In this document: positions 37,151 through 42,192 of the stretch, piece after piece
Position numbering within the stretch: the first letter of the stretch is position 1
How the letters are laid out: each line of letters begins with the position of its first letter
Assembly (NCBI GenBank): GCA_019313915.1
Contig: JAFDAJ010000019.1
Coordinates: forward strand, 1-50,562
Direction of reading: 5' to 3'
Source: Deltaproteobacteria bacterium
GTDB lineage: Bacteria; Myxococcota_A; Polyangia; Polyangiales; Houyiibacteriaceae
DNA length: 50,562 bases
Made by a program: the position numbers and the translations under genes
Notes under the pieces: model-generated
What the model was told of the DNA's origin: nothing
What the model saw: the letters and a program-made list of their open reading frames with translations, nothing else
The model's database searches: none

Positions 37151-38481
37151 TGGCGCGGAAGAAACGGCAAGCACTGCAGGTCCCGGAGCTAATCGTTCGC
37201 AAACGTGAGGGGGGGCAGCTCAGCGAGCAGGAGATTCGAGACGTCGTCGCTGGGTTCATGGACGGTTCGGTGGCCGACTACCAGATGAGCGCGCTGGCGA
37301 TGGCGGTCTACTTCCGGGGCATGAGCTTCGAAGAGACCGTGGCGATGACGCTGGCAATGCGCGACAGCGGCAAGGTCGTGAGCCTCGACAACGTCGACGC
37401 GCCCAAGGTCGACAAGCACTCGACCGGAGGTGTCGGGGACAAAGTTAGCATCTGCCTCGCTCCGATCGTCGCGGCGTGCGGCGTGGCGGTACCCATGATG
37501 AGTGGTCGAGGGCTCGGACACACAGGAGGAACGCTCGACAAGCTCGAGGCGATTCCAGGCTTCAGGGTCGATCTTTCCGTGAGAGAGTTTCGCGCGCAGC
37601 TCGGTAAGATCGGGTGTGCGCTGATTGGCCAAACCGGCGACTTGGCGCCTGCGGACAAGCGGCTATACGCGCTGCGGGACGTCACGGGAACGGTCGAGTC
37701 GATTCCGCTAATCACCTCGAGCATCCTGTCGAAGAAGCTAGCAGAAGGAATCGACTCGCTGGTGCTCGACGTGAAGGTCGGCCGCGGCGCCTTCATGAAA
37801 ACCGAATCCCACGCCAGAGAGCTCGCGCGCTGCCTAGTGCGAGTCGGCAGGCTTGCAGGGAAGCGAGTCTCCGCCCTGCTCACCGACATGCACACGCCCA
37901 TCGGGTACACGATCGGCAACGCACTAGAAACAACCGAAGCGCTCGAGGTGCTTCATGGCCAGGGACCGAATGATCTGCAGGAGCTCACCTTCGAGCTGGC
38001 GGCCGAAATGCTGCGCTCCGCAGGGGTGTCCAAGACCAGGGCGCAGGCGCTACGGCGCGTCGAGCTCGCGGTGAGGGACGGGGCCGCGCTCCAGAAGATG
38101 CGGCAAATCGTCGAGGCCCAGGGTGGTGATCCGGGTGTAGTCGATGAACCAGACCGACTCGCGGTGGCGCGGCACCGGTCAACAATCAAGGCGAGGTCCA
38201 ACGGATATGTCACAGAGATCGACCCGCTCGAGCTCGGTTACGCTTCGATGGGATTGGGCGCGGGCCGCAGCCGAGCAGAGGATGCAGTCGACCCGGGCGC
38301 CGGCATCCGCTTATACGTTCAGCTTGGCGATCGAGTCCGAACGGGCGACGAGCTTGCGACCCTCTATGCGTCGGAGCGCGCGCGGGTGCGGGGCGGCGCG
38401 GACCGGGTGGCCGCCTCTTTTCGAATCGGTAAACGGCGCCCAGCAACGCGGAGCCGCATCATCGAGACGATTCGGCGTTGA
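37150..38481 (+). CDS. deoA: Thymidine (pyrimidine-nucleoside) phosphorylase
   Basis: A 443-residue nucleoside phosphorylase that splits thymidine or other pyrimidine nucleosides with phosphate. Signals: KHSTGGVGDKVS (phosphate loop), SGRGLGHTGGTLDKLEAIPG (family signature), ITSSILSKKLAEGIDSLVLDVKVGRGAFM and PIGYTIGNALE. The length fits the dimeric family. The ATG at 37150 overlaps the rnr stop (TGATG); a GTG three bases upstream is also possible. The coupling of RNase R with a nucleoside phosphorylase suggests joint RNA turnover and nucleoside salvage. Its end overlaps the convergent peptidase gene by 23 bases. Confidence 0.95.
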   Translation: MARKKRQALQVPELIVRKREGGQLSEQEIRDVVAGFMDGSVADYQMSALAMAVYFRGMSFEETVAMTLAMRDSGKVVSLDNVDAPKVDKHSTGGVGDKVSICLAPIVAACGVAVPMMSGRGLGHTGGTLDKLEAIPGFRVDLSVREFRAQLGKIGCALIGQTGDLAPADKRLYALRDVTGTVESIPLITSSILSKKLAEGIDSLVLDVKVGRGAFMKTESHARELARCLVRVGRLAGKRVSALLTDMHTPIGYTIGNALETTEALEVLHGQGPNDLQELTFELAAEMLRSAGVSKTRAQALRRVELAVRDGAALQKMRQIVEAQGGDPGVVDEPDRLAVARHRSTIKARSNGYVTEIDPLELGYASMGLGAGRSRAEDAVDPGAGIRLYVQLGDRVRTGDELATLYASERARVRGGADRVAASFRIGKRRPATRSRIIETIRR

Positions 38482-39841
38482 TCCCGCAGGCGCGCTCGGC
38501 ACGCGACGTAATCTGTGCGCGAACCTGCTGATACTCCGGTGAATCGACGTACGGGATGCTCGGGAAATCGGAGCTCGCCGCGTACTTCGCTCCAAGCTCC
38601 TCGATGAAGCCGGCGCCGCTGGCCTCTTGCAGCGCTCTTAGCAAGACGGCGGCCCCAACAGGCACAGCTTGAGCGCCCCAGATGTGTTGAGCCTCGCTGA
38701 TGGCGCGCAAGAGCGTCATCTCCCCTTTGCTGCTCTTTCGGAGCCGAACATCCGCTTCCAGCGCGAACGCGGCCCCGGCCCAATACACGCGATGGTACGC
38801 GCCCGTTCGATTCATGTTCCGGCTCTCGCTAGCCAGTCGGCGCCCGGTGCCGGACCGCCGCCCTCGCTCGAAGCCCGCTTGCAGACGTGTCCACGCGCGT
38901 TCGCTCGTCTGAAAGCCGCACCGTGCTCGCAACACCTCCTGCAGATAGGTCGCAACTCCCTCCGAGATCCAACGGTCTTTGGAGTACAAGGGAGGCAGCC
39001 AGAGATGCGAGAGCTCGTGAACGGCCACCCAATCTGCTTCGAGCTGCTCGACCGTCGCGTCGGGTGACGAAAGCAGCAGAACCGATGAGCCGCCTCCCCG
39101 ACGCACCATCCCGAACACCACCGCCATCTCTTGGTCTTGCTGGGGAGCAATGATGAAATGAAGGTGCTTGCGCGGGAAACGATCGCCGGCTGAAGCAGTG
39201 GCTTGCACCGCACGACTGAGCCAACGGCGAATGTGTTCGTCTGACGGACGCGCTCCGAGACGGGCGACGTCGATACTCGTGCCCGCTGCCGAAAACGCTT
39301 GACGGTCAAACGACCCGAACACGCCGAACGTGCCGGCAAAGAAAGCGCTGTCATCTGGGAAGTAAACCGCGTCGGAATGCGGCCAAGGTAGCGACACCTG
39401 TTGGTCCGCGGGGAGGACGAACCGAATGGACGTGTCGAGCTCGCGTGGGAACGGGTCGGGCCGCCACAGCCACTGTGCTTGTGAAACGATGATGGCGGCC
39501 GAGTCGTTCGCTCGAAGCATCGGCGTCCCAAAGCGCGTCTCGTAGTCGACGCACGACGCGTGCAAAGACTGCGGCAGTCGAATCCGGCCGCGGGAGATAT
39601 CGAGCGTGTCACCTTGGATCCAAGCTCCATGCAGCTCATGCCCCGCGCTGTCACCAATGGGGACTAACGCACGCACCGTCGCGCCTTCGAGGCATACCCG
39701 GACCTTGGCACCGCCAAAGTTGTCAGAAATTGTCACGGTGTAGTGTGCTGATGCCCGAGTTGACTGGGTTGGAGCAGGCCTCTCGGGGGCGTGCGCACAT
39801 CCAAGGAGGCAGAGCAGCACACCGACTCTCCATTGATTCAT
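38459..39841 (-). CDS. Lipoprotein zinc metallopeptidase, M61/M1-like (gluzincin)
   Basis: A 460-residue protein with a short lipoprotein signal (lipobox LLGC, Cys15). A beta-rich N-terminal half is followed by a gluzincin catalytic site: HELSH (His275, Glu276, His279) and, 15 residues after the second His, Glu294 in WISEGVATYLQEV. That spacing and the WISEG motif suggest an M61 glycyl-aminopeptidase-like or M1-like fold. The start ATG 39841 is set by the signal peptide; the longer open frame upstream would run antisense through the RiPP precursor. It is transcribed divergently from the RiPP cluster; any role in processing that peptide is speculation. Confidence 0.8.
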   Translation of the reverse strand: MNQWRVGVLLCLLGCAHAPERPAPTQSTRASAHYTVTISDNFGGAKVRVCLEGATVRALVPIGDSAGHELHGAWIQGDTLDISRGRIRLPQSLHASCVDYETRFGTPMLRANDSAAIIVSQAQWLWRPDPFPRELDTSIRFVLPADQQVSLPWPHSDAVYFPDDSAFFAGTFGVFGSFDRQAFSAAGTSIDVARLGARPSDEHIRRWLSRAVQATASAGDRFPRKHLHFIIAPQQDQEMAVVFGMVRRGGGSSVLLLSSPDATVEQLEADWVAVHELSHLWLPPLYSKDRWISEGVATYLQEVLRARCGFQTSERAWTRLQAGFERGRRSGTGRRLASESRNMNRTGAYHRVYWAGAAFALEADVRLRKSSKGEMTLLRAISEAQHIWGAQAVPVGAAVLLRALQEASGAGFIEELGAKYAASSDFPSIPYVDSPEYQQVRAQITSRAERACGINAESSR

Positions 39842-39970
39842 GACGTGTAACCCCTGAGAACCTATGGGGTATTTGCGCCAGAGTGGTAGTGTCTTAGTGT
39901 TGAAATTCGTCCGAAACATCTGCGTCTCACCAACGTACCTGTATGTCATGACGCACGTTTCGCTTTTAGA

Positions 39971-39999
39971 TTGCGACAACCGATGGGTTTGGCTAGCGT
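39971..39999 (+). promoter_or_regulatory. Candidate promoter for the RiPP cluster
   Basis: TTGCGA (39971-39976), a 17-base spacer and TAGCGT (39994-39999) lie upstream of the precursor gene and would give a leader of about 100 bases. The rest of the 265-base divergent region (39842-40106) shows no other gene and no recognised metal-responsive operator. Confidence 0.35.
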
Positions 40000-40106
40000 G
40001 CACTCGAAGGAAGCGGGGGAATGGGATTGGTCCCTGACGCCGTGTTGCATCGATCGGGGCCTTTCCTATCGCTCCTGATGCTCTTACAAGAAAGAGGAAA
40101 GAAACA

Positions 40107-40352
40107 ATGAACTCAGCACTCAAGCACACGATCATCGCGATGGCGACCGCGGCACTCAGCATGACCGCCGCATGCAAGTCGGACGATGGTCCGGAAGCCA
40201 GCGAAGCGACGACCGGAGCCGAGACTGCAGCGGCCGCCGAAGAAGGCGCAGCAGAAGCCTCCTGTGGCGAGGGCAGCTGTGGCGAAGCCGCGAAGGAAGG
40301 CGACGCATCGGAAGCTTCTTGCGGTGAAGGCAGCTGCGGCGGCGCCAAGTAA
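40107..40352 (+). CDS. HvfA/bufferin-like RiPP precursor with lipoprotein signal
   Basis: An 81-residue peptide. Residues 1-22 form a signal with lipobox TAAC (Cys23), followed by an Ala/Glu/Gly-rich linker and two identical copies of EASCGEGSCG (50-59 and 69-78), placing Cys at 53, 58, 72 and 77. EGSCG closely resembles the EGKCG motif of HvfA-family precursors, whose Cys are modified by the DUF692 enzyme encoded next to them. AGAGGAAAG upstream is a strong ribosome-binding site. Known precursors have an ordinary signal peptide; a lipobox would tether the product to a membrane. The core function, probably copper or other metal binding, is inferred from the family. Confidence 0.85.
   Translation: MNSALKHTIIAMATAALSMTAACKSDDGPEASEATTGAETAAAAEEGAAEASCGEGSCGEAAKEGDASEASCGEGSCGGAK
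40254..40340 (+). repeat. Duplicated Cys-motif repeat in the RiPP precursor
   Basis: Two 30-base copies (40254-40283 and 40311-40340) encode the same ten residues. They differ at six bases, all third codon positions and all synonymous, so the peptide repeat has been kept while the DNA drifted. Confidence 0.9.
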
Positions 40353-40394
40353 TCCACAAAGGTCACGCTGCTCGCGACCGGGCAGCAAGGTGTT

Positions 40395-40438
40395 AGAAGC
40401 CGCGGCGGCGGATGTCGCCGCGGCTTCTTGTTTTGTGA
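40395..40438 (+). terminator. Strong hairpin/attenuator between precursor and modifying enzyme
   Basis: AGAAGCCGCGGCG (40395-40407) pairs perfectly with CGCCGCGGCTTCT (40416-40428) over an eight-base loop and is followed by TGTTTTGTG. It lies between the precursor stop and the DUF692 start at 40447, so most transcripts would end after the precursor, with some read-through to the enzymes. Confidence 0.75.
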
Positions 40439-40446
40439 GAGAGTAA

Positions 40447-41289
40447 ATGACTCGAGACGTCGCCGGAATCGGCCTGGGGCTTCGATACGACCTTGCGACG
40501 GAGCTCCTCGAACGGACTCCGAAGAACATCGCGTGGTTGGAGATCCATCCGGAAAACTACATCGACCGCGGTGGTCGCTATCAAGAGATGCTGGACCTAG
40601 CCCGAGAAGACTGGCCGGTCATCACGCACGGTTTGAGCTCTTGCCTAGGCGCACTCGAACCCTTCGACGCGAGCTACCTGAAAGAGCTCGGAACCTTCTT
40701 GAGAGATCTCGAAATCCCGTGGCACAGCGAGCACCTCTGTCTAGGCGGAGTCGATGATCGCTTCTTCCACGACTTGCTCCCGCTCCCGTTCACGGAGGAG
40801 GCGGCGGCGATCGCGTCACAGCGATTGATCGAGATGCGCGACGCGATCGGAGTGCCGCTCGCGCTCGAGAACGCGAGTTACTACGCGCCGCAAGGCCCGG
40901 ACGGCCTGGCGGAAGCCGACTTCGTGGTAGAGGTCCTCGAGAAGGCGGATGCGAAGCTGCTTCTAGACGTCAACAACATCTATGTAAACGGCCGCAACTT
41001 CGACTTCGACCCCAAGTTGTATATCGACAAGATCCCGATGGAGCGCGTGGTGCAAATCCACGTCGCCGGCCACTTCGTCCGCGACGACGGGCTGCGCATC
41101 GACACACATGGCGAGCCGGTGCCCGACGACGTGTACGAGCTGCTCGACTACACGTTGCGCAAGACAGGCCCCGTCCCGGTGCTTCTCGAACGCGACAATA
41201 ATGTTCCGCCACTCGACGAGCTCCTCTCCGAGATCGATGAGCTCTGGACGATTTATCGGAACGCAACGGGGGTTGGCGATGCTCGCTGA
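40447..41289 (+). CDS. DUF692 multinuclear non-heme iron enzyme (MNIO), HvfB/BufB-like
   Basis: A 280-residue TIM-barrel enzyme of the DUF692 family, which uses two or three iron ions and oxygen to modify Cys in precursor peptides. Candidate metal ligands and family motifs in order are IHPENY (34-39), THG (His61), HSEHLC (93-98), LENASYY (Glu141, Asn142), DVNNIYVN (174-181), IHVAGH (His205, His209), DTHG (Asp219, His221) and LLERDNN (Glu249). All expected positions are filled, so it should be active. It follows the precursor after a hairpin and overlaps the partner gene by 11 bases. The exact modification (oxazolone/thioamide or thiooxazole) cannot be decided from sequence. Confidence 0.93.
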   Translation: MTRDVAGIGLGLRYDLATELLERTPKNIAWLEIHPENYIDRGGRYQEMLDLAREDWPVITHGLSSCLGALEPFDASYLKELGTFLRDLEIPWHSEHLCLGGVDDRFFHDLLPLPFTEEAAAIASQRLIEMRDAIGVPLALENASYYAPQGPDGLAEADFVVEVLEKADAKLLLDVNNIYVNGRNFDFDPKLYIDKIPMERVVQIHVAGHFVRDDGLRIDTHGEPVPDDVYELLDYTLRKTGPVPVLLERDNNVPPLDELLSEIDELWTIYRNATGVGDAR

Positions 41290-42016
41290 CCATGCCAAAG
41301 CCATCCACCGTGTCTGCTTCGGTTCGGAGCCGAGCGAAGCCGACCTCGAGCTGCTCGGGTCGCGCGAACGCTGGCTGGTCTATAGGGACCTCGTGCGTAA
41401 CCGCCTCAACCATGTGATCGGCGTCGCCCTGGCCCGCACCAAGAACGCAATTGGGGAAGAGGTGTTCCAGAGGGCCGTCGACGAATGGTTCAGCACGGGC
41501 GGCCCCACCACTCGATACCTACGATACGTGCCGAGTGAGCTCGCGGAGTTTGCCATTCCGATCTGGCAACGCACCGAAGCCCCGTGGGTCGCTGACCTCG
41601 CGGGCTACGAGATCACCGCATGGGAGATCCGCTACGGGCCCCCAAACCCTACGCCGTCCCACGAGTTCGCCTTCGACCGCAGGCCGGTCCTCGCCACGGC
41701 CGTGAAAGTTCTCCGCCTCGCGTATCCGGTCCACAACGAACCCGCGCCCGGCGCAGGTTACGAACCGGACCCCACGATTCTCTGCCTCTACCGCGACAAG
41801 AACCACAAGGCGATCCCGCGCAAGCTCAACCCCCTCGCTGCAGACCTCCTCGACGCCTGGCGCGCAGGCGATCAAACCGTCGCAGAGTCCGTGCAACAAG
41901 TCGCGGCCGCCCACAAGACCCAAATCGGCCCGGACTTCATCGAAAAACTCTCCACCCTAATCGCCGACTTCCTCAACCGCGGCATCCTCTTGGGGGGACA
42001 GGATCCCCCTCCGTAA
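41279..42016 (+). CDS. DUF2063-type RiPP partner protein, HvfC/BufC-like
   Basis: A 245-residue protein that matches the partner of DUF692 enzymes, thought to bind and present the precursor peptide. The N-terminal part (about 1-95) is the helical DUF2063 domain, beginning MLADHAKAIHRVCFG, with WLVYRDLVRNRLNHV; the C-terminal half contains YEITAWEIRYGPPNP and LCLYRDKNHKAIPRKLNPLAADLLDAW. The start at ATG 41279 overlaps the DUF692 gene by 11 bases. The last residues, GGQDPPP, and the stop codon are encoded by the left arm of a 26-bp inverted repeat, so the C-terminus may have been altered by that element. Confidence 0.85.
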   Translation: MLADHAKAIHRVCFGSEPSEADLELLGSRERWLVYRDLVRNRLNHVIGVALARTKNAIGEEVFQRAVDEWFSTGGPTTRYLRYVPSELAEFAIPIWQRTEAPWVADLAGYEITAWEIRYGPPNPTPSHEFAFDRRPVLATAVKVLRLAYPVHNEPAPGAGYEPDPTILCLYRDKNHKAIPRKLNPLAADLLDAWRAGDQTVAESVQQVAAAHKTQIGPDFIEKLSTLIADFLNRGILLGGQDPPP

Positions 42017-42192
42017 CCCCCCGAAACCAAACAGCCTCTCCGCCGAAGATCACAACGACAGATCACCGAGCCGTCGGTGACCACGGCTGGAGGCCGAAAC
42101 GGCCCCATGCAAGATCGCGGAAAGTAGCCGCTGGGATCTTCCGCTGAGAAGCGGAGTGGTCCCGGTGGGTTACGGAGGGGGATCCTGTCCCC
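41994..42192. repeat. 199-bp element bounded by a perfect 26-bp inverted repeat with four inner hairpins
   Basis: The arms at 41994-42019 and 42167-42192 are exact reverse complements. Between them lie four stem-loops: TCACCGA/TCGGTGA (42063-42080), GGCCG/CGGCC (42092-42104), AAGATCGCGG with CCGC plus GATCTT (42111-42140), and CCGCT/AGCGG on a GAGA loop (42141-42154). The left arm holds the HvfC-like stop codon and the right arm ends in the acyl-CoA dehydrogenase stop. No clear target-site duplication and no T-run were found. It may be a MITE-like insertion, a structured RNA, or a bidirectional 3'-end element. Confidence 0.85.

Follow-up and report, generated by a model that had tools for sequence, protein, structure and literature searches.

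A three-gene MNIO cluster with a predicted lipoprotein precursor of the HvfA type in Myxococcota

The window (the whole stretch of DNA that was analysed, 50,562 nucleotides from the 4.4-Mb draft genome of an uncultured relative of the myxobacteria, whose close relatives carry the GTDB labels Myxococcales or Deltaproteobacteria) contains a cluster of three genes that encode, in this order, a small precursor peptide, an MNIO (DUF692) enzyme and a partner protein with DUF2063 and RRE parts (Table 1). A Shine-Dalgarno-like AGAGGA lies upstream of the precursor ORF, and the hvfB- and hvfC-like genes overlap by 11 nt. The gene order precursor-MNIO-DUF2063 with a partner of PME type 1 is one of the features of the HvfA/oxazolin (Buf_EGKCG) family. 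No DoxX gene, copper regulator or other copper genes were found in the cluster.

Table 1. Features of the cluster and its upstream DNA (positions in the window).
Feature	Position	Strand	Basis or reading
Conserved upstream box GAAACATC-N13-CGTA	39913..39937	+	ECF-promoter-like spacing GAAAC-N16-CGTA
Probable housekeeping-type promoter of the precursor gene, TTGCGA-N17-TAGCGT	39971..39999	+	Inferred from conservation
HvfA-like precursor	40107..40352	+	ORF, 81 aa; NCBIfam NF050137 match; family conservation
15-bp hairpin with T-rich tail between precursor stop codon and enzyme gene	40395..40428	+	Probable internal terminator/attenuator
MNIO (DUF692) enzyme, HvfB/BufB-like	40447..41289	+	PF05114, NCBIfam HvfB and PDB 3BWW matches
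Partner, DUF2063 + NGO1945_C/RRE-like, HvfC type, 'PME type 1'	41279..42016	+	DUF2063, NGO1945_C and NCBIfam HvfC matches

By its sequence matches the second gene product is certainly an MNIO of the HvfB/BufB group. It matched PF05114 (1.2e-88), the NCBIfam models for HvfB (2e-86) and BufB (7e-78) and PDB 3BWW (1.3e-49), and it is the single PF05114 match of its genome. The genus members G391, G392 and G386 also encode another, distantly related MNIO (about 30% identity) that is missing from this genome. The metal-site segments THG, SEHL, LENASYY, DVNN, HVAGH, DTHGE and LLERD are conserved, and His61, His96, Glu141, Asp174, Asn176/177, His205, His209, Asp219, His221 and Glu248 lie within conserved segments. 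Site 3 of HvfB is formed by N175, D242 and H244 (PMC13419390), and the enzyme has the segments expected to hold these residues, a comparison made at the level of segments. The partner matched DUF2063 (5e-9), NGO1945_C (4e-11) and the NCBIfam HvfC model (4.6e-25), so that the DUF692 and DUF2063-type genes which had been named behind the small ORF are indeed present. The score of the enzyme against the HvfB equivalog model (289.8 bits) did not reach the cut-off of 360, and all proteins of the cluster stayed under the respective cut-offs of the HvfA, HvfB, BufB and HvfC equivalog models.

The precursor reads MNSALKHTIIAMATAALSMTAAC(23)KSDDGPEASEATTGAETAAAAEEGAAEASC(53)GEGSC(58)GEAAKEGDASEASC(72)GEGSC(77)GGAK. 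It consists of a lipoprotein signal peptide (residues 1-22) with the lipobox TAAC and Cys23 as predicted lipid site, an acidic Ala/Glu-rich linker and two EASCG-EGSCG pairs. The position of this small ORF and its four core Cys (53, 58, 72 and 77) agreed with the original prediction, as did the lipobox before the repeats. The lipoprotein (SPII) signal by which DAG-RiPPs are recognized was found here by a pattern rule, which combined a lipobox pattern with a hydrophobic stretch. A comparison with the HvfA families had been proposed as a check. The repeat-domain model NF050137 (KCGExKCG_twice, HvfA-type, NCBIfam) accepted the precursor with 23.5 bits at a cut-off of 19.5, and the HvfA equivalog model NF050188 gave 25.9 bits, below its cut-off of 95. 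Database standards thus place the peptide in the HvfA-type repeat family without making it a strict orthologue of HvfA.

In the genus the same three-gene block occupies a fixed chromosomal place, flanked by rnr and thymidine phosphorylase at one end and by acyl-CoA dehydrogenase and rpoC at the opposite end. The cluster is thus more than a chance arrangement, and the locus is a core chromosomal one and not mobile. The divergent neighbour (38459-39841, minus strand) probably encodes a lipoprotein as well, with the lipobox LLGC and a zinc-peptidase-like HELSH motif. No match to it was found beside the cluster in the loci L005, L006 and L007, and it is therefore not considered part of the cluster. 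At the other end, a palindromic repeat (41994-42057 and 42129-42192) begins within the 3' end of the partner gene and provides the last codons of the partner protein (GGQDPPP). Similar copies elsewhere in the genome, on several further contigs, identify it as a dispersed REP/MITE-like element.

The enzyme was matched in 31 of 34 genomes of the same bacterial family. The lipobox Cys, Cys23 in the window, is kept in all 25 distinct precursors that could be read from this family, 23 of them called by the automatic rule and two (L005 and L007) by eye. It is invariant while the flanking residues vary, and its context, outside the EASCG/EGSCG motif, is always compatible with a lipobox. A count of homologues with a lipobox beside DUF692 genes, also proposed earlier, was carried out on the precursors upstream of 158 MNIO genes, each labelled by the same rule. 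Lipoboxes were called in 23/23 precursors of the family, in 35/79 of other Myxococcota and in 0/56 of the non-Myxococcota (mostly Gammaproteobacteria). From this last group one doubtful call was set aside (L063, one among 56 EGxCG precursors in a survey of the loci, with a better signal-peptidase-I site). Together, 58 of the 102 Myxococcota precursors in the sample have a lipobox; these fractions are not population estimates, since the Myxococcota were sampled as best PF05114 matches and the outside set as nearest relatives of the query. Buf2-like and ASCSG-type precursors are among the other Myxococcota precursors with lipoboxes (L091, L092, L094, L101, L109, L157 and L163, and others). In a quick tree of the MNIO sequences the family's enzymes group together with a support of 99. 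This group falls on the side of the gammaproteobacterial EGKCG enzymes, and no fewer than ten changes of lipobox state are needed along the tree.

The literal EGKCG motif is absent from the precursor in the window, which contains EASCG and EGSCG only. In the family, Ser precedes the core Cys at 95 of 100 sites, but in the non-Myxococcota set Lys does so at 401 of 443. The mean net charge after the signal peptide is about -22 per 100 residues for family precursors versus about +1 for that set. Family precursors have two to six core Cys and one to three close pairs, and at least one Cys-x4-Cys pair is found in 25/25 distinct sequences. It had been suggested that the Ser motif and the paired Cys spacing may define a separate subfamily. 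The Ser-for-Lys exchange does mark a supported clade, but the spacing was rejected as a subfamily mark because five residues are the normal register of EGKCG-EGKCG repeats.

Work on FonBC, as reported in PMC12668002, helps to judge whether such a motif can be a substrate. There one EGKCG repeat was left unmodified and two were modified, the minimal core was EAKCGEGKCG, and at the Lys position Ala, Arg and Thr were tolerated whereas Phe and Glu were not; Ser at this third motif position is not reported among the variants which that paper describes. EASCGEGSCG corresponds to the ten-residue FonBC core with Ser for Lys. The two-repeat rule and the tolerance at the Lys position make it a plausible substrate. 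By analogy with the FonBC minimum, and with a close pair in every precursor, modification of the core Cys of family precursors by the MNIO seems likely, and the pairing would be explained as the smallest accepted substrate, so that no novel spacing is involved.

A hairpin equivalent to that behind the precursor gene is present in all 16 genus loci examined. In 15 aligned loci it shows 14 consensus stem pairs, none of which is broken and three of which have compensatory changes. Several other family members have hairpins of different sequence at the same position. Judged by sequence it is probably an internal terminator. Most simply, it would act as a partial terminator that gives more precursor than enzyme, but it may also be leaky or non-working. 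The main text of the paper on the MNIO landscape (PMC12452194) mentions neither 'terminator' nor 'hairpin'.

Two conserved blocks with the look of promoters lie upstream of the precursor gene. In 15 genus loci GCTAGCGTG hardly varies, and several more members of the family have a TTGC...TAGCGT-like block, although a generic sigma-70 scan did not report TTGCGA-N17-TAGCGT at this place. The box GAAACATC-N13-CGTA has constant spacing in 15 genus loci, with CATA for CGTA in one. Control of the cluster by an ECF sigma factor was nevertheless rejected: no further site of this kind was found in the own genome, and a box that occurs once per genome supports no regulon. A short upstream ORF (MTHVSLLDC..., from 39946) seemed conserved, but in several loci of the genus its frame and stop codon are not preserved, which makes conservation of a promoter at the DNA level the better explanation. 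The 5' untranslated region of the precursor (40002-40106) has two hairpins that are conserved in 15 genus loci, GCGG..GGGATTGGTCCC..CCGC and GCATC..GATGC, and the stem GCATCG...CGATGC recurs in other family members. With almost no covariation and no credible Rfam match, a riboswitch-like function was rejected.

From the genes and from the conservation of lipobox, Cys pairs and hairpin we infer a modification chemistry, lipidation, copper ligand and expression ratio as follows. The cluster would encode a DAG-RiPP (a RiPP-lipoprotein hybrid) of the HvfA/oxazolin kind, modified, lipidated and copper-binding, with precursor in excess over enzyme through the internal terminator; we put the probability of this reading at roughly two in three. 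In the cytoplasm the MNIO, an iron enzyme, and its DUF2063/RRE partner would oxidize the core Cys of the two EASCG-EGSCG pairs, four in all, with 5-thiooxazoles as the probable product and a loss of 4 Da each and 16 Da in total. The precursor would then be exported through Sec, after which Lgt would attach diacylglycerol to Cys23 and Lsp would cleave before it. The mature peptide would sit on a membrane, exposed to the periplasm (or beyond) at the end of its long acidic linker, and bind excess Cu(I). The hairpin behind the precursor gene would ensure that much precursor and little enzyme is made. EGKCG products were reported to contain 5-thiooxazole and to bind Cu(I) (PMC12668002; PMC13419390), and HvfB makes copper-binding 5-thiooxazoles (PMC13419390). 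In addition, NedA of Neisseria dentiae, an EGKCG peptide with a lipobox, was described as triacylated and as losing 4 Da per motif by the action of an MNIO (PMC12636315), which shows that one and the same peptide can be lipidated and modified by an MNIO.

Other explanations have to be considered. The peptide might be modified and exported but freed by signal peptidase I, which would make it an ordinary soluble periplasmic oxazolin or bufferin in which Cys23 is incidental. The HvfA-type precursors outside Myxococcota in the tree set, without lipobox apart from the one doubtful call, are in line with such a release. Against it, Cys23 is invariant in the family precursors within a lipobox-compatible context outside the repeat motif, the genome contains an Lsp gene and two Lgt genes, and NedA, as described in PMC12636315, shows that a lipidated form exists; release in soluble form is therefore improbable. 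It seems hardly credible that the product is a plain small lipoprotein with Cys, left unmodified by an enzyme that is adjacent by accident. Modification of the precursor is itself a prediction, but the block of precursor, MNIO and partner is kept across the genus and also outside it, and no family precursor lacks a two-repeat pair.

A lipidated and modified peptide could also serve something other than copper buffering, such as another metal, defence against redox or thiol stress, or delivery of metal via outer-membrane vesicles or to neighbours. The acidic motif, with almost no Lys, is unlike the peptides tested with copper, the cluster is without copper genes, and for some bufferins MerC fusions point to other metals (PMC12452194). 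However, according to PMC12668002 the characterized members of the MNIO + PME-1 group all form 5-thiooxazole, with copper binding in each one that was tested, and we regard a role of this kind as unlikely. For the DAG-RiPP that we favour, copper would by analogy be the natural ligand, with another soft metal as a possibility.

The membrane on which the peptide would stand cannot be read from the residue after the lipid site. In M. xanthus, Lys at +2 was found in 8 of 12 inner-membrane lipoproteins (PMC3222651). The genus precursors begin with C-K-S-D and the rest of the family has mostly Gly at +2. In the own genome two OmpA/Pal-like lipoproteins that are expected in the outer membrane (L238, L239) begin with C-K-K-D, and two HlyD-type periplasmic adaptor lipoproteins expected in the inner membrane (L240, L242) begin with C-P and C-A. 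The M. xanthus rule is therefore not transferable, and inner-membrane retention by Lys at +2 was rejected as a rule here.

A wider reading, which we offer tentatively and consider rather doubtful, is that membrane anchoring of MNIO copper RiPPs is widespread in Myxococcota and has been switched repeatedly, so that it is no oddity. In this family it would have become fixed alongside an acidic core almost free of Lys, to give a membrane-standing copper buffer that works in a mode unlike soluble oxazolins and that cells might share through vesicles or exchange of outer membrane. Lipid anchoring of copper-binding RiPPs has so far been tested in one oxazolin-type peptide (from Neisseria); as a predicted trait it is fixed across this family and often switches in the phylum. 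The natural series of Ser-for-Lys substrates, with one to three close Cys pairs, may serve to probe what MNIO-partner complexes need, and the internal hairpin offers a simple, testable account of how the precursor could outnumber the enzyme.

The original prediction implied that lipid anchoring of such peptides was new. This does not hold: lipidated MNIO peptides are already published, including the triacylated and modified EGKCG peptide NedA (PMC12636315), and lipoprotein signals were counted in about 16% of Buf2 bufferins (PMC12452194). What appears to be added here is a clade in Myxococcota with a Ser-type, acidic core, a family-wide lipobox and a conserved internal hairpin, some sequences of which may be listed in the supplementary tables of PMC12636315. 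The cluster resembles NedABC in that EG-x-CG-type repeats, a lipobox and an MNIO with DUF2063 partner are combined, but NedA, from Neisseria, keeps the Lys of EGKCG. With HvfABC of Haemophilus influenzae (PMC13419390) and the fontiphorin FonABC and captophorins (PMC12668002) it shares the MNIO with HvfC-type partner, the five-residue Cys register and a Sec signal. For HvfABC and FonABC these two papers report Lys before Cys and, in what they describe, no lipid anchor; HvfA has six modified Cys and FonA seven sites, compared to four in the window precursor. Buf2 bufferins are likewise MNIO substrates with a signal peptide, but they have 6 or 12 conserved Cys (PMC12452194), and the Buf2-like precursors of Myxococcota belong to other branches of the enzyme tree. 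The CxxxxC family (PMC12452194), with the lipidated Cluster X (PMC12636315), also has a C-x4-C pair, a signal peptide and in part a lipobox; compared by its published description, it may overlap with the Ser type of Myxococcota.
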